Made by a program: the position numbers and the translations under genes
The notes under the pieces: model-generated
The model's input: the letters and a program-made list of their open reading frames with translations, nothing else
What the model was told of the DNA's origin: nothing
The model's database searches: none
In this document: positions 1 through 40,554 of the stretch, in pieces
How positions within the stretch are numbered: the first letter of the stretch is position 1
Layout: each line of letters starts with the position of its first letter
Origin: Pseudobdellovibrionaceae bacterium
Lineage (GTDB): Bacteria; Bdellovibrionota; Bdellovibrionia; Bdellovibrionales; UBA1609
NCBI GenBank assembly: GCA_023954155.1
Contig: JAMLIO010000012.1
Coordinates: 1-40,599 of the forward strand
Reading direction: 5' to 3'
DNA: 40,599 nucleotides

Positions 1-59
1 CGAACTCGCATTTCGACCATACACAATGAAAAAATAAATTCCCAAACTAAATCTGTAAA
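1..59. repeat. Truncated copy of the covarying-arm hairpin element (right half)
   Basis: Bases 1-18 match the last 18 bases of the 79-nt core found at 29061-29139 (CGAACTCGCATTTCGACC). After base 18 the sequence leaves the other copies and should be the right arm of a hairpin whose left arm lies outside the window. As in the complete copies, the arm begins with ATA next to the core and the element runs up to a stop codon, here that of the mscS gene (60-62). The right end of the arm cannot be fixed without the upstream sequence. Confidence 0.7.
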
Positions 60-7932: not shown

Positions 7933-8823
7933 TTAAAGACTTAAAGGTAAAAGCTGCTTTTGCAATTGCGGAGCGGGAGCCTCTTTCCATAACCCGATGA
8001 GATAGCCTCCTCCACCAGAGCCTGTCAGTTTGCATTGCTGGGCCCCACCTTCTGTCAAAAGTACTATGGCTTTGTCTACTTCTGGAGTCACTAGATCCCA
8101 CTCCTCATAACACTGCTGTCCCAATCTTAGGCCCGCCTTTAAAACATCAAAGCCCTCTTGGGCGTCCATACAAAGCGCTCGTTCACACATGTCCACAGAC
8201 TCTTTCATCTGAAAGTCCATGCGGGCAAAAAGATCAGGCTTTGTGGTTTGTAAGGCCTTCACCTTATTCACACACTCCAAAGTCACGCCTTTTTGGCCAG
8301 TGTAGTATAAATACAGTTGAGGACTCCACTTAGGAGTGAAAACCTCGACAGGTTTATGGCGGATGTATTTGATCGCACTTTCATAAAACGCAATGGCAAT
8401 ATCAGCCCCACTGCTCTCGCCATGGAACTGATCTTCTAAAGATCGGCAAAATTCAAAAAGCTGATCATCAGCAATCAAACCAAAATTGCGCAACAAACGC
8501 CCGACTCCTACAGAAATAGCTGCCGAAGCCCCTAGTCCTCCACCAAAAGGAAGATAGTTCACAAGCTCTAAGCGTCCCGTAAGGTCTCGTCTTGATTTCC
8601 CCAATTTTTGTAAAGCCACTTCTAACAGACCCCAAAATAAAAACTTAAGAGGTTCGCCATGAGGGCCAGACATGACCGCATCAAAATACTCTTCAGAGGG
8701 TTTAAAGTGCATGTCTATAGAATAAGATTTAATAGGAAATACTAAGGCAGGGGCTCCACGAAGCACCGCATGTTCGCCTGATAAAATACATTTTGCATAA
8801 AGTGATTTTTTAAATTCAACCAA
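7933..8823 (-). CDS. mvk: Mevalonate kinase (GHMP family)
   Basis: A 296-residue ATP-dependent kinase for mevalonate to 5-phosphomevalonate. GHMP motifs: GEHAVLRGAPAL (residues 16-27), the phosphate loop PFGGGLGASAA (92-102), HGESSGAD with the likely catalytic Asp at 141, and the C-terminal LTGSGGGGYLIGLW. GEHAV followed by a P-A-L segment is typical of mevalonate kinase rather than phosphomevalonate or homoserine kinase. The start is a TTG, with AAGGG about 8 nt upstream and no ATG nearby. It is last in the mevalonate operon, 16 nt after mvaD. Confidence 0.88.
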   Translation of the reverse strand: MVEFKKSLYAKCILSGEHAVLRGAPALVFPIKSYSIDMHFKPSEEYFDAVMSGPHGEPLKFLFWGLLEVALQKLGKSRRDLTGRLELVNYLPFGGGLGASAAISVGVGRLLRNFGLIADDQLFEFCRSLEDQFHGESSGADIAIAFYESAIKYIRHKPVEVFTPKWSPQLYLYYTGQKGVTLECVNKVKALQTTKPDLFARMDFQMKESVDMCERALCMDAQEGFDVLKAGLRLGQQCYEEWDLVTPEVDKAIVLLTEGGAQQCKLTGSGGGGYLIGLWKEAPAPQLQKQLLPLSL

Positions 8824-8839
8824 ACAGGAAGCCCTTATC

Positions 8840-9787
8840 TTAATATCTTAGGATTTGAATCTCTTTAGACCATTTTTCGCAAATGTTTTCCATCATTTCT
8901 TTTTGATTAGATCGAAATAAGAAATGAATATTAGGGCCCGCATCCATGGTCACAATAGGACCATCCCCAATCATCTTCCAGTAGTCGCGAATCCAATTTA
9001 AAACTTTAATCGTCTCAGGCACCATATATCCAAAACTAGGAACACTGGTTTCAAACAGAACGTGCATATCCCAAAACTCAGCCCAACAGATTTCATAAGC
9101 CTTTTGCCAGTCTTTATTTTGAAAGGCCTCTATCAAATGCAACATTCTGGTTTTAGCCCGATCAATGCGACCATCAAACAAAGAACTGCTCACCACTCGT
9201 TTATGGGCTTCACTGGAACTGACTTTTTTAACAGAACTGTTCACAACAAGCACCATGTGATGAAGGTCTTTGTAAGGCAGTTCAATCTCTTGAATGGCAT
9301 CATGACTCCAAAAAGACCAAGGAGAAAAAAAGGAGCGGCAAGAAGAACCTGATCCCAAACGGCTGAGAGCTGCGATGTCTTTTTGTGGAGGTAAAGAGCG
9401 TTCTGTCAGCTCACAAATGGCTTTCACAGTCACTTTAGTCAGTGCCGCAAAGCTACTGGCAGAACTGGCCAAACCACAATCGTGAGGAAAATTATTGCCA
9501 GACTTTACAATAAAGTGTCCGTCATATTGAAAAGAATCTTTGATTTTTTTTAAGAAATTTAAAAAACGTGCCTCTTGTTGTCCAGACAAATTGATATTAG
9601 CACCAGGCAAAGGCTCAAAGTGATCTTGCCCATCAGGGCTAGGTGCTAACTGCACCTCCGTGGTCAAGTGATTAAGAGTGTAAGATAAAGTGGGATTGAT
9701 AGTCTGATTGATGTCCCCTTCCACCTTGCCCATATACTTGATCAGAGCAATATTTGAAGGTGCTTTATCTATCCATACTTTATCCAT
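8840..9787 (-). CDS. mvaD: Diphosphomevalonate decarboxylase
   Basis: A 315-residue enzyme that converts mevalonate diphosphate to isopentenyl diphosphate with ATP. Signatures: APSNIALIKYMGK (9-21; the family has YWGK), NNFPHDCGLASSASSFAAL (GHMP phosphate loop), SRLGSGSSCRSFFSPW, and the C-terminal TMDAGPNIHFLF containing the catalytic Asp. A GAGG ribosome-binding site precedes the ATG. The start region has an 11-bp tandem repeat (TCCATACTTT twice on the plus strand) that creates a second, out-of-frame ATG. It follows the phosphomevalonate-kinase-like gene after a 148-nt gap, in which the mvaD frame stays open upstream for about 40 codons without an ATG. Confidence 0.94.
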   Translation of the reverse strand: MDKVWIDKAPSNIALIKYMGKVEGDINQTINPTLSYTLNHLTTEVQLAPSPDGQDHFEPLPGANINLSGQQEARFLNFLKKIKDSFQYDGHFIVKSGNNFPHDCGLASSASSFAALTKVTVKAICELTERSLPPQKDIAALSRLGSGSSCRSFFSPWSFWSHDAIQEIELPYKDLHHMVLVVNSSVKKVSSSEAHKRVVSSSLFDGRIDRAKTRMLHLIEAFQNKDWQKAYEICWAEFWDMHVLFETSVPSFGYMVPETIKVLNWIRDYWKMIGDGPIVTMDAGPNIHFLFRSNQKEMMENICEKWSKEIQILRY

Positions 9788-9935
9788 ACTTTGCCTCTTT
9801 GAGCCTCGAAAAGCTTCTGGAAACCTCGGCCTATTTAAAAAACCCAGCCTTAATTTCTTAAAACGGACCTCTTGCCAAAATCCTTTCTTAAAAGTCTCTT
9901 GCTCAGGGTCTTAGTTGTGGGTTCCTTTTAAAAAA
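9788..9935 (-). other. 148-nt spacer inside the mevalonate operon
   Basis: This is the only large gap in the operon. No ATG-initiated gene fits. The frame of mvaD is open upstream to a TAA and would encode a basic peptide, but it lacks a plausible start codon. It may be a remnant of a longer gene end, or a leader for mvaD and mevalonate kinase. No convincing terminator or promoter was seen. Confidence 0.4.
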
Positions 9936-10874
9936 CTAATTTTTAAAAACTACGCCATCTTCATCTGTCACAAAACGCAGATCGTCCGCATACAATGTAC
10001 CTATCTCGTTTAAGACCTGATTTTTATACTGCTTTTTACAAAAAACAGCAACAACGTCTGCGCCTAAAGCTCCGCATCCCTTAGCAAAACTGATATTCGG
10101 CACATCATAAAGACGTTTCACAATGTCGAGAGTTTCAGCACAAATAAGGTCAGATTCTTCTAATAAACCTCTAAACGTTGTCATCGCTTGAATAAAACCC
10201 TCTTGATCTTCTTGGGTGTATTGGAAGGACACCTTTTCACTTGCAGACAAAAGAGGTTTTAAAACATCTGAAGATAAACCAGAGACATGCTGATGAGTAA
10301 ATACTTTTTTCTTGGTCTTAAATAACAGAAAACTAAGACGCGTAAAGGGCCACGGTTTCACCATAAGACGTAACTGACCTGATAAAACATGGATTACATT
10401 GAAGTTGGATTTAAGCTGAGTCACCAGATCGTAACCACTAGGAGGCAGAGCTTGCGTACCTGCGTGAGGAACAATCTCACGGTAAAGCTCCCATAATGTC
10501 TGTATGTCCATATCTAAACGCGACTTCAGCTTGTAGGCCACATACACAAATTCTGCTGTGGACCTGCCAAACCCTCCTGCTCCATGATGAGGGTCAAACA
10601 TCTGACATGAGGACAGGGCCTTGACCTCCTCGGCTGGCAAATTCAACTTTGCACGCGTATGATCAATGAATTTTCCCGCAGGGCTTTCTGGATGGAAAGT
10701 AAAATCTTGGGACACTTCTTGCTGATCTAAAAGAATTTTTGCGTCAGAAAAAGCAAAGCAAGGTTCAGTGGCAACAAGGCCCGCACTGCCACCTTCAAGA
10801 GCGGCATACTCGCCCCATAAAAAGGTTTTGCTGGGAACATAAAAGATGTCGCTACTTGATTTTAGGCTCTTCAT
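9936..10874 (-). CDS. GHMP kinase, probable phosphomevalonate kinase
   Basis: A 312-residue GHMP-fold protein placed between HMG-CoA reductase and mvaD, where a phosphomevalonate kinase is needed. N-terminal PSKTFLWGEYAALEGG (14-29) matches the family start (GEY with ALEGG). The phosphate-loop position reads GAGGFGRSTAEF, with Arg-Ser-Thr instead of the usual SSA. The active-site segment is PPSGYDLVTQ, and the C-terminal motif is AKGCGALGADVVAVF, similar to the phosphomevalonate kinase SGAGGGD block. The family and step follow mainly from context; the sequence is divergent. It overlaps mvaA by 23 nt. Confidence 0.72.
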   Translation of the reverse strand: MKSLKSSSDIFYVPSKTFLWGEYAALEGGSAGLVATEPCFAFSDAKILLDQQEVSQDFTFHPESPAGKFIDHTRAKLNLPAEEVKALSSCQMFDPHHGAGGFGRSTAEFVYVAYKLKSRLDMDIQTLWELYREIVPHAGTQALPPSGYDLVTQLKSNFNVIHVLSGQLRLMVKPWPFTRLSFLLFKTKKKVFTHQHVSGLSSDVLKPLLSASEKVSFQYTQEDQEGFIQAMTTFRGLLEESDLICAETLDIVKRLYDVPNISFAKGCGALGADVVAVFCKKQYKNQVLNEIGTLYADDLRFVTDEDGVVFKN

Positions 10875-12162
10875 GCAAGTCTCTATTTCTTAAATCATTA
10901 AGAGCATCAATCGCCTGACTTAAAGAAATTCTTTTTGTTGCACGCAGGATCTCTTCTAATTTTTTTTGCACAAACGGGGTTTCTGACTCTTTAGCACCTG
11001 CACTTAAAGCCAAATTTTTAATATGTAACTTCATGTGCCCTTCAATAATCCCCACCGTAGATAAGGCTTTGATCGCACCTAAGTTTTGTACCAGCCCCAC
11101 AGCCGCACAGATTCTTGAAAGGTCATCCGCAGATTCAATGTTCATCATCTTAAGGGCCATCGTTGCAAAAGGATGAAGTTTTGTAACTCCACCCACAACA
11201 CCCACAGAAATCGGAGCAATCAATTGTCCAGTTAAAGTTTTGGCACTGGGGTTCGCCCACCACTTGGTCACAGAACGGTATTGGCCATCTTCTAGAGTGG
11301 CATAAGCGTGCATCCCCGCTTCCACCGCGCGCCAGTCGTTTCCTGTAGCCATCAAAATAGGATCAATCCCATTAAGTACACCTTTATTATTTGTAGCTGC
11401 GCGATAAGGGTCAAGTTGGGCAAAAAGCGAGGTCTCTTGGATCTTTATGGCTAAGTCAGGATCAATGTTGTTCATCACAACTTCGGCCTTCACCAAACGA
11501 GTGTCCGTGAGGTTACTTAAAATCTTCACATTCACTGTCTCGTCAGTAAGGTCTTCAATGGGACCAGCTAAAAACTCACACACTTGATTGATGATATTCG
11601 CACCCATGGCATCGCAGGTCGCAATCTCAGCATGAATGACCGCCATCGTGTAAGAGTCGGGACGAGTGATATAACGAAGTTTTAAATCTCTGACTCCACC
11701 ACCTCGGTCCACTAAACCTTTGGCAGGAATTTGGTTCGCCAGTTCTATGAGATGTTTTTTAATATTCGCAAATCTGGTTTTAAATTCCTCAGGATTTTTA
11801 AGGATGGCAATTTGAATTTGTCCAATCCCTACATGGCCTAACATTTGGGTTTTAATATGCCCATTGCTTTTGACCCACTTAGCGGTTTTGCTTGCGGCTG
11901 CAATAATAGAAGTCTCTTCCACAGCCATAGGGATCAAAACAGGTTTGTCATCAATCACAAAATGCGTGGCCACACCTAAAGGCATTGGGAAATATCCCAA
12001 AGAGTTTTCAATAAATTTTTCTGCTAGGTCAGGCTCTAAAAAGTTACTCAACCTAAGCAGTCGCACGTCTTCTTTTGTCAGGTAGCCTAGATCTTGAAGG
12101 ATCTTAAAGCGGTCTTTACGTTCTAACTTTGAGAATCCCTCAAAAGGATTTAGTTTTTCCAT
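10852..12162 (-). CDS. mvaA: Hydroxymethylglutaryl-CoA reductase, class II
   Basis: A 436-residue enzyme that reduces HMG-CoA to mevalonate, the committing step of the pathway. Class II features: SLGYFPMPLGVA, PMAVEETSIIAAAS with the catalytic Glu, DPYRAATNNKGVLNGID with catalytic Lys and Asp, and GHMKLHIKNLALSAGA with the catalytic His near the C-terminus. There is no membrane anchor. The frame opens at 12213, but the ATG at 12162 has GGAG at proper spacing and matches the family N-terminus. The 12162 start overlaps idi by 13 nt. Cofactor preference (NADH or NADPH) cannot be read with confidence. Confidence 0.94.
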   Translation of the reverse strand: MEKLNPFEGFSKLERKDRFKILQDLGYLTKEDVRLLRLSNFLEPDLAEKFIENSLGYFPMPLGVATHFVIDDKPVLIPMAVEETSIIAAASKTAKWVKSNGHIKTQMLGHVGIGQIQIAILKNPEEFKTRFANIKKHLIELANQIPAKGLVDRGGGVRDLKLRYITRPDSYTMAVIHAEIATCDAMGANIINQVCEFLAGPIEDLTDETVNVKILSNLTDTRLVKAEVVMNNIDPDLAIKIQETSLFAQLDPYRAATNNKGVLNGIDPILMATGNDWRAVEAGMHAYATLEDGQYRSVTKWWANPSAKTLTGQLIAPISVGVVGGVTKLHPFATMALKMMNIESADDLSRICAAVGLVQNLGAIKALSTVGIIEGHMKLHIKNLALSAGAKESETPFVQKKLEEILRATKRISLSQAIDALNDLRNRDLHEEPKIK

Positions 12163-13193
12163 TCCCAAACTCCATTTTTCTGACACGAAACAGGGTCTCG
12201 ATGTCCTGTGCAAAATAACCCGACTCTAGTTTCATACTCTAGGATCGCCATTAACTCTAGGACTTTTTCTGTTCCCTCAAGGGCAGCTCGCAAGAAGGGC
12301 TGCGCCACTCCCACCATTTCAGCACCCATGGTCAAACACGTCACAACGTCTAAGCCTGTCCTGATGCCTCCTGAAGCCCAACATCTTTTGTCCTGCATCT
12401 GTTCACGGTTGGCAAAAAAAGCGTTCAAACTTTCTGCGGTGGTGTGCCCCCAATAAGAATAGGTCTCAGATGCGCGTACATACATAGGGTTTTGACTTCG
12501 TCCCCCCTCTATACGTCCCCAATGCGTTCCACCCATACCCGCCACATCAATGGCATAAAGATTAGGAATCTTACAAAGTTCAATTAAAGACAGTAAAGAA
12601 AATCCACAACCCGTCTCTTTAACCAGAATCGGCACAGGAGAAGACTCTGCAAGGTTTCTAAGAGCCTCGACTCCTCCCTTAAAATTCGGAGTTCCTTCTT
12701 CTTGCATCACCTCTTGTAAAGCATTGAGATGAACCACAAAAGCTTGGGGCTCTAAATGATCAATGAGTTTTAAAACTTCTGTCGCCCCACTTTCAATCAG
12801 TTGGGGTAGACCAATATTTCCAAACACTTTCAGTGTGGGGTACTGCTGCTTACGGCTCTTCCATTCTTCTTTGGCTTTAGAGTCAAAAAGTTCACGACGT
12901 TGTGAGCCTACACCCATCAGCCAATTTTTTTCTACACAGGCTTCAAACAAAGCATGATTGATTTTAGGACTGTCGGAGTGACCCGCCGTCATAGAGCTGA
13001 CAAAGATAGGGGCATTCACTTCGAGTTGACCAAAAACTTTAGTCTTTAAATTGACTTCTGAAAAGTTAAATTCAGGCAAAGCCTGATGAAAAAGTCGAAC
13101 TTGGCTGGAGGGACTGAGCCCCACTTGATGTCTCACATCTAAAGACTGAACAATATGATCCTTTTTACGAGATTCAAATGTGGCATCATTCAT
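12150..13193 (-). CDS. idi: Type 2 isopentenyl-diphosphate delta-isomerase
   Basis: A 347-residue FMN-dependent enzyme (Fni/IDI-2) that interconverts IPP and DMAPP. Signatures: RKKDHI near the N-terminus, PIFVSSMTAGH, MGVGSQRRELFD, LVKETGCGFS, the phosphate-binding DVAGMGGTHWGRIEGG and WASGGIRTGLDVV. It is the first gene of the mevalonate operon. The ribosome-binding site AGGAAG lies immediately after a terminator-like hairpin (13217-13244), so the hairpin is inside or directly ahead of its leader. Confidence 0.94.
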   Translation of the reverse strand: MNDATFESRKKDHIVQSLDVRHQVGLSPSSQVRLFHQALPEFNFSEVNLKTKVFGQLEVNAPIFVSSMTAGHSDSPKINHALFEACVEKNWLMGVGSQRRELFDSKAKEEWKSRKQQYPTLKVFGNIGLPQLIESGATEVLKLIDHLEPQAFVVHLNALQEVMQEEGTPNFKGGVEALRNLAESSPVPILVKETGCGFSLLSLIELCKIPNLYAIDVAGMGGTHWGRIEGGRSQNPMYVRASETYSYWGHTTAESLNAFFANREQMQDKRCWASGGIRTGLDVVTCLTMGAEMVGVAQPFLRAALEGTEKVLELMAILEYETRVGLFCTGHRDPVSCQKNGVWEWKN

Positions 13194-29026: not shown

Positions 29027-29173
29027 GCAGAGATTTTGGGGTCTCCATTTTTATATATATACTCAAAATACTCAAACAGTGACGTTTGGCATACCTTTGC
29101 GTTCGCAAAGCTACGCCAAGCCGAACTCGCATTTCGACCATATATATAAAAATAGAGACCCCAAAATCTCTGC
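29027..29173. repeat. Covarying-arm hairpin element, copy 1
   Basis: Left arm 29027-29060 pairs with right arm 29140-29173 (34 bp, one mismatch). Between them is a 79-nt core (29061-29139) that contains an inner hairpin around GCG-TT-CGC. The core is about 85% identical to that at 30121-30199, while the arms are unrelated. It fills most of the space between the convergent ccoG and hexapeptide-transferase genes. Confidence 0.9.
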
Positions 29174-30088: not shown

Positions 30089-30231
30089 GGCATTTGGGTT
30101 TGGGCTTTTTAGTTATATATACTCAAAATGCTCAGACAGTGACGTTTGGCATGATTTTGCGAACGCAAAATCATGCCAAGCCGAACTCGCATTTTGACCA
30201 TATATAACTAAAAAGCCCAAACCCAAATGCC
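30089..30231. repeat. Covarying-arm hairpin element, copy 2
   Basis: Left arm 30089-30120 pairs with right arm 30200-30231 over 32 bp with no mismatch. After two mismatches the core ends add nine further pairs (TCAAAATGC with GCATTTTGA). The 79-nt core (30121-30199) has a perfect 16-bp inner stem (TTGGCATGATTTTGCG, loop AA). Same orientation as copy 1. Here the element sits between divergent genes, so it is not simply a terminator for converging transcripts. Confidence 0.9.
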
Positions 30232-38439: not shown

Positions 38440-38698
38440 CCCCCTAGTTACACTGAATTTAGAATTGGAATTTGATTTGAGATTCCTTTAGAAATTAGGT
38501 TATACCTTCGATTTCAACCTCAGAAGTGAGCAATGCGTATCCGACATGCGTTGGCCTGTGGGGCCATAGGTCCCACAGGGTAACGCGTGCCGAAGACGCT
38601 TTGCACCCGTCTCTGCTGCGTTGGAATCGAAGGTATAACCTAATTTCTAAAGGAATCTCAAATCAAATTCCAATTCTAAATTCAGTGTAACTAGGGGG
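38440..38698. repeat. Large 259-nt palindromic element with 74-bp arms
   Basis: Arm 38440-38513 is perfectly complementary to 38625-38698 over 74 bp; after one mismatch another 4 bp pair. The 111-nt centre contains a further stem (38555-38562 with 38572-38579) and paired halves carrying the motif GYCGRANWCGCWTT (38532-38545 inverted; 38589-38602 direct), which also occurs in the cores of copies 1 and 2. The left arm starts 4 nt after the ZIP stop codon. The right arm includes the stop codon and last bases of the Fur-type gene. Confidence 0.92.
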
Positions 38699-39143
38699 TG
38701 CGGCAGGTTTTGCAGAGGTAGTTCACGCGGACGTGGGAGATTTGGTTGCGCTTGAAACCTAGGATTTTTTGTAGAGATTCTAGGTCTTGGTTTTTGATTG
38801 TGGGCTCATCGGCGTTGCCGCATTGGTCACAAAGCCAGCTCATGTGGAGATGCTTAGAGCCACATGTCGAGTGCTGGCAAAGGCTCACTTGGCCTTGGTT
38901 TAATTCATGGACCACCTTGATATCTTTAAGAACTTTGATGCTGCGGTAGACTGAGGCCTCATCGACTTGCACGTCTCGGCTGAGCAGCTCTTGGAAGATT
39001 TGTGGTACCGTCATGGCCTTGTCGGTCTCAAGTAAAAGCTCAAGCAAAGCGCGGCGCTGTTCCGTAATTCTCAGTCCTTCATCTTTCATCAGACGAAGAA
39101 GCTGTTCTAAATTTTCAGAAGTTTTAGGAGTGGCACAGTTCAT
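38691..39143 (-). CDS. Fur-family metalloregulator (Fur or Zur)
   Basis: 150 residues. The N-terminal winged helix (LRITEQRRALLELLLETDKA, then VDEASVYRSIKVLKD) binds DNA; the C-terminal dimerisation domain has the structural zinc site CDQCG and CKTC at the end. The regulatory His-rich loop reads CGSKHLHMSWLCDQC, with one fewer His than Fur. Linkage to tonB suggests iron control, while the convergent ZIP transporter suggests zinc; sequence alone does not decide. The last Pro codon and the stop codon lie inside the arm of the large palindrome. Overlaps the preceding gene by 20 nt. Confidence 0.9.
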   Translation of the reverse strand: MNCATPKTSENLEQLLRLMKDEGLRITEQRRALLELLLETDKAMTVPQIFQELLSRDVQVDEASVYRSIKVLKDIKVVHELNQGQVSLCQHSTCGSKHLHMSWLCDQCGNADEPTIKNQDLESLQKILGFKRNQISHVRVNYLCKTCRTP

Positions 39144-40521: not shown

Positions 40522-40554
40522 ACTAAAAAGCTCACCTGAGGTGAGCTTTTTAGT
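40522..40554. terminator. Bidirectional intrinsic terminator
   Basis: A 33-nt perfect palindrome, ACTAAAAAGCTCACC with its complement around TGA, with A and T tracts on the two sides, so it can act in both directions. It probably ends a gene beyond the right edge and insulates tonB. Confidence 0.85.

Follow-up and report, generated by a model that had tools for sequence, protein, structure and literature searches.

The window analysed here, a stretch of 40,599 nucleotides that is the complete contig C12 of a Pseudobdellovibrionaceae genome (G000; 15 contigs, 2.44 Mb, 99% complete), begins inside a repeat, and this locus bears on the question of how long, perfect stems of RNA or DNA originate and are maintained; in a passage of PMC8794818, the evidence presented there on stem maintenance is itself called circumstantial. 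The first 21 bases of the window (CGAACTCGCATTTCGACCATA) are an exact match to positions 29122-29142 and differ by a single C/T change from the copy at 30182. A previous reading, made from this sequence only, had taken bases 1-18 for the right end of a hairpin core, and this was borne out: positions 1-20 (forward strand) are identical to 29122-29141, the right end of the core denoted here family A, and CGAACTCGCATTTYGACCAT is found exactly in 30 places of the 2.44-Mb genome, compared to none for a control pattern read backwards. The right arm of the cut copy (21-59, forward strand; the limit at base 59 is nominal, being set by the position of the adjoining stop codon) lies directly beside an MscS-like gene on the minus strand (60-884, stop codon 60-62). 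The observation that this arm is unlike the others also held: among 39 left arms, none apart from a trivial match scores above 10 with it, and the median for true partners is 36. Base 1 of the window is base 1 of the contig, so there is no sequence to the left of it, and a left arm complementary to bases 19-50 was not found anywhere in the assembly (39 left arms compared). The wider claim, that the edge holds a truncated third copy and that the arms of this core covary, is supported by covariation across the genome, with complementary arms in 35 of the 39 G000 copies of family A.

The two complete family-A copies in the window (all coordinates on the forward strand) have the same organization. 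In the first copy, the left arm (29027-29059) and the right arm (29141-29173) form 32 of 33 pairs around a core at 29060-29140 that scores 101.2 bits with the covariance model R1; in the second, the arms at 30089-30119 and 30201-30231 form 31 of 31 pairs around a core at 30120-30200, also detected with R1, and the RNA fold of 30089-30231 has z = -18.4. About 81 nucleotides are conserved in the core, among them those of an internal-loop motif (CTCAGACA..CG / CCGAACTCGC); the core also has a short inner stem, and long arms lie on either side of it. The 39 copies are distinct places detected with R1 in G000 (hits on both strands counted once); the four that lack complementary arms include one cut by a contig end (C2:6) and three at mosaic or rearranged loci (C9:242, C2:58894, and C5:762). 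A scan of the whole window against Rfam at the curated cut-off produced no matches, and permissive scans of the hairpins produced sub-cut-off matches only.

Right halves of family-A copies are located at five contig ends (C7:1, C7:end, C8:1, C10:1, and C12:1, the last being the window edge). For three of these, a complementary left arm is present on another contig: C8:1 with C2:6 (score 33), C10:1 with C2:58894 (33), and C7:end with C9:242 (48). The only clean end-to-end join is that of C8:1 with C2:6; the left arms at C2:58894 and C9:242 sit on cores bearing a different right arm, so these loci are mosaic or misassembled, and the right halves at C7:1 and C12:1 have no complementary left arm in the assembly. 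In G025, another genome of the same family, two contigs (C12 and C35 of that assembly) end in two halves, the arms of which are complementary along some 120 nt (with 108 matches and a score of 71). Bases 1-80 of the window recur with 100% identity at C5:819-898, beyond which the sequences diverge; at C5, this segment is joined to an inverted right half, with no left half, and the arm of the inverted half resembles that of the copy at C6:50813. The previous reading predicted, to the left of base 1, the remainder of the core and before it the reverse complement of bases 19 to about 50; read literally, C5 would contradict this, but the region C5:758-898 is a right/right junction, and we do not count it as a refutation. 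The 80-base overlap between C12 and C5 could be a seam of the assembly graph. The apparent 61-point match of the edge arm to C5:762 (minus strand) is not evidence of a partner because what is matched there is this same DNA, present also in C5 and read from the opposite strand. Apart from this, about 800 bp between inverted family-A copies are duplicated (C5:1-818 and C6:50069-50866, loci L098 and L099) at 95% identity with 23 gap openings, which suggests sequencing indels or a decayed duplicate; after this duplicate, C5 runs into that of the window edge. Loci of this kind are what could be expected if the hairpins were assembly or library artefacts, that is, fold-back chimeras formed at hairpins: there are cores at the ends of contigs, the structure of C5, C9, and C2:58894 is mosaic, and some arms in genome G017 stop at contig ends. 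We consider such an origin highly improbable given that the cores recur in 32 of the 143 genomes of the class, that interior copies are found in contigs of up to 590 kb, with different genes on either side, and that the palindromes stop between genes.

The arms are private to each copy and nearly perfect within it. The own-arm median score of 36 compares with a mean of 3.3 over 1,482 cross pairs among G000 family-A copies, and only two cross pairs score at least 20, both involving duplicated or mosaic loci. In 33 of the 39 copies, the arm identity between copies equals that expected from base composition (0.25-0.33) beyond 12 nt from the core, and the pairing of arms within copies is 0.88-0.90 out to nucleotide 30. 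The arms do not follow the kinship of the cores: among the 294 pairs of equal core length that were compared, arm identity (nucleotides 13-35) is 0.29 in 22 pairs with 0-3 core differences and 0.30 in 84 pairs with 9-15 differences, and three G000 copies have an identical 81-nt core along with unrelated arms. Slow divergence of inherited arms is thus ruled out because identical cores carry unrelated arms, and the pattern suggests that each locus generates or rewrites its own arms instead of inheriting them. The pairing is independent of core divergence as well. In 35 of 38 G000 copies (C5:762, minus strand, left out of the 39), with 1,196 arm base pairs in total, 9 mismatches due to substitution were counted along with 12 gap columns, compared to 148 mismatches predicted from core divergence, and the 12 most diverged cores have 4 arm mismatches against 103 expected. 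Classified by type over 72 copies scoring at least 16 (G013, G029, G007, G025, and G065 left out), the mismatches comprise 15 G.T, 12 A.C, and 26 others in 2,885 bp, with no wobble preference, so that copying fits better than RNA-level compensation.

One form of copying would be an inverted duplication coupled to insertion, whereby the enzyme mobilizing the core would also transfer a copy of 30-80 bp from one flank to the other side in a single step, followed by slow decay. Private perfect arms on identical cores are readily accommodated in this manner, as are the inward-facing terminator-like arms mirrored on both sides that are described below. We nevertheless regard it as quite unlikely: the most diverged cores are equally perfect in their arms, there is no resident Y1 transposase, the arm limits respect stop codons, and the family-B elements discussed below contain private inner stems.

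Model R2, constructed from 26 diverse family-A copies with marked covariation (covariation score 0.342; shuffles score 0.139 and slid structures no more than 0.129), detected the family in the 32 genomes mentioned above, which represent 19 of the 68 genera of the class (copies counted up to a ceiling of 32 per genome). Within one genus, family A is present in G029, G037, and G042 and missing in G014; for the one G029 locus tried, G014 yielded no DNA-level match and no empty site. The arms are private in G000, G005, and G017, exceeding 100 nt in the last of these genomes. In G029, they are largely common to the copies, forming a repeated unit of about 213 nt (HSPs of 84-96%), so that arms can travel with the core. 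Among the 80 loci listed for public genomes, all R2 matches with E < 1e-5 come from records labelled as Bdellovibrio relatives; one Bacteroidales locus with E 0.018, among the R2 matches listed, was taken as a chance match.

The copies are positioned mostly by the 3' ends of genes. Of 37 copies in G000, 11 lie between convergent genes and 3 between divergent ones; with ORFs called by a simple script, a facing 3' gene end is no more than 44 nt away in 36 of 45 cases, and a 5' end is more than 60 nt away in 25 of 27. When read inward, 19 of 35 arms (from 35 of the 39 G000 copies) contain a hairpin with a U-rich tract, compared to 55 of 280 dinucleotide-shuffled sequences and 2 of 35 arms read outward. 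This enrichment, the location near stop codons with the excess of convergent over divergent neighbors, and the covariation in the core all agree with functional RNA hairpins at the 3' ends of mRNAs, acting as bidirectional terminators or as 3' stabilisers, in which compensatory selection would let the arms diverge while the loop motif is held. Such selection is an unlikely explanation, if one to be taken seriously: unrelated arms on identical cores and near-perfect pairing over 28-80 nt without wobble preference count against it, and so do two G000 copies located 100-200 nt from divergent genes and the 8 of 21 copies in G029 that lie between divergent genes. Intrinsic terminators resemble the elements described here in that inward-read arms often look terminator-like and are located just past stop codons, but the whole hairpin here is about 140-260 nt long, includes a conserved core and, by eye, usually has no T-run at its base. 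The window also contains an ordinary strong candidate for an intrinsic terminator, a 15-pair hairpin with a T tail at 40522-40554.

A different core, denoted family B, is found in the window within a hairpin at 38440-38698 (forward strand), between convergent ZIP-transporter and Fur-family genes. The left arm (38440-38513) and the right arm (38625-38698) are perfect over 74 nt (99% over 79 nt), the right arm extends over the final 8 nt of the Fur-family gene (38691-39143, minus strand), and the spacer between the arms (38514-38624) contains the core (R3 match at 38517-38620; RNA fold z = -25.7). The likeness of this core to that of family A is limited to GACATGCGTT and GCCGAA. There are about 18 copies of core B in G000, mostly with private arms, and three copies in G025 have an identical 78-nt core and unlike arms; of the 143 genomes of the class, 8 contain family B, and in 6 of these family A is present as well (hypergeometric p 0.0017, with kinship ignored). 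In four family-B variants (L359, L360, L362, and L364), conserved segments within the element are separated by an additional private stem with a conserved tip (approximately CCCAAAGGGGTTTC), giving the impression of a hairpin within a hairpin. A third core, C (CCAGCAAGCGGGACGCGCTTTGCCC...), is found at L359:326-553, L118:1128-1300, and L096:570-698, with private perfect arms of 28-83 nt, and has a relative in another genome (L140). The three cores behave alike, that is, each is shared among copies with mostly private, matching arms. None of the three families reached the Rfam cut-off, and we conclude that two hairpin families absent from Rfam, and probably a third, are present in these relatives of predatory bacteria; a literature search, with most subscription journals outside its scope, yielded no publication that describes repeats of this type in the group.

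Private arms would be accounted for also by insertion of cores into the tips of pre-existing hairpins, and G065 does contain one perfect hairpin that lacks a core, with arms of 48 nt around a loop of 3 nt (L368:2572-2670). However, all 48 perfect hairpins with arms of at least 28 nt in 371 kb (overlapping) of G000 loci, a sample centred on known copies, hold one of the cores (29 A, 16 B, and 3 C), and no empty perfect hairpin with arms of at least 20 nt was found in these loci, so that we give this scenario very little credence. Shorter core-less inverted repeats were detected in L325 (G030); the hits to runs of N in L326 are masking artefacts.

The explanation that we favor, with about even confidence, is that these are dispersed hairpin cores and that fold-back template switching both generates their arms and maintains the match between them. 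The core would be the part that spreads, and the arms would belong to the locus rather than to the core lineage. At replication, the core strand would fold, and the resulting hairpin would prime synthesis back along the neighboring strand, so that one flank becomes, through intrastrand template switching (quasipalindrome correction), a reverse-complement copy of its counterpart; repeated switching would then erase later mismatches. Rewriting would spread outward into tolerant sequence, and arms would therefore often stop just past a stop codon, clear of promoters, although selection for 3' hairpins would account just as well for arms that end at stop codons. In G000, the copied flank might often be a gene's own terminator, giving rise to the mirrored, inward-facing terminator-like arms.

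Intrastrand template switching fits stems that are perfect whatever their sequence and loops that are left alone, and in the elements described here arms are kept identical irrespective of sequence. Switching of this type has been proposed for RNA genes, with an excess of G and U derived for the 5' side, in sections of PMC8794818, and the cases treated there share with these elements stems that are perfect regardless of sequence, conserved loops, and the predicted bias of the 5' arm. The stems considered in those sections are short ones of RNA genes, obtained from ancestral reconstruction, whereas here there are dozens of dispersed elements with arms mostly of 28-80 nt. In the left (5') arms of G000, G exceeds C in 27 of 31 untied copies and T exceeds A in 31 of 35, which is the bias so derived; this is weak support for switching because a terminator layout would predict the same bias and because no G excess is seen in family B or in G017. 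Counting against fold-back switching, no switching event or empty site was seen in the comparison of G014 with one G029 locus. Furthermore, the private inner stems of family B are beyond what a local flank can supply, which weakens flank capture as the sole source of arms, and these stems, together with the shared arms of G029, are not explained by flank copying alone. The more far-reaching scenario, which we put forward tentatively and with some doubt, is that a class of mobile hairpin cores in Bdellovibrionota moves without stems, each core, once arrived, building a long stem from local DNA by self-primed fold-back and keeping it perfect, with A, B, and C all doing so in one genome and host terminators being mirrored in the process. 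The approximately 60 natural hairpins in a single genome, with cores but not stems in common, amount to a replicated test that can set single-step compensations against whole-block rewrites between strains.

Among known systems, REP/BIME elements, which are associated with the RAYT transposase, are dispersed intergenic hairpins near 3' ends, as are the elements described here, but the Y1 transposase (Y1_Tnp, PF01797) is missing from G000 and most copy-rich genomes. A search for this domain produced no matches in the copy-rich genomes G000, G001, G013, G017, G028, G036, G037, and G042; it is present in 99 of the 143 genomes of the class, with one match in G029, and on this distribution Y1/RAYT was rejected as the current mobiliser. 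A reverse transcriptase or retron was rejected in this role as well: RVT_1 is present in 10 of 14 genomes, including the copy-free G014, and absent from the copy-rich G042, G036, and G017. The reverse transcriptase of G000 is part of a retron type VI-like pair with an HTH protein (L403:2481-3768, corresponding to C2:213480-214767; PADLOC RT_VI 2e-65, HTH_VI 3e-27). Integron attC sites consist of R and L boxes recognized by a cognate integrase; such boxes are not evident by eye in the elements. No blastn matches were found in phages, plasmids, or viral contigs; the eight viral pattern hits included one weak covariance-model match (E 0.026) and no convincing one, and none of the 80 listed family-B pattern loci gave a covariance-model match. 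MITEs and palindromic repeats of bacteria such as RPE, CIR, and YPAL/RU-2, as outlined in part of PMC2229807, are likewise short, dispersed between genes, and able to form long hairpins; they are described there with inverted repeats of their own, whereas the G000 copies have only the inner 12 nt or so of their arms in common and lack the shared terminal inverted repeats typical of MITEs; in G029, the arms are largely common to the copies. Elsewhere in the window, a run of minus-strand genes at 7933-13193 resembles, as judged by eye from the translations, a mevalonate-pathway cluster.
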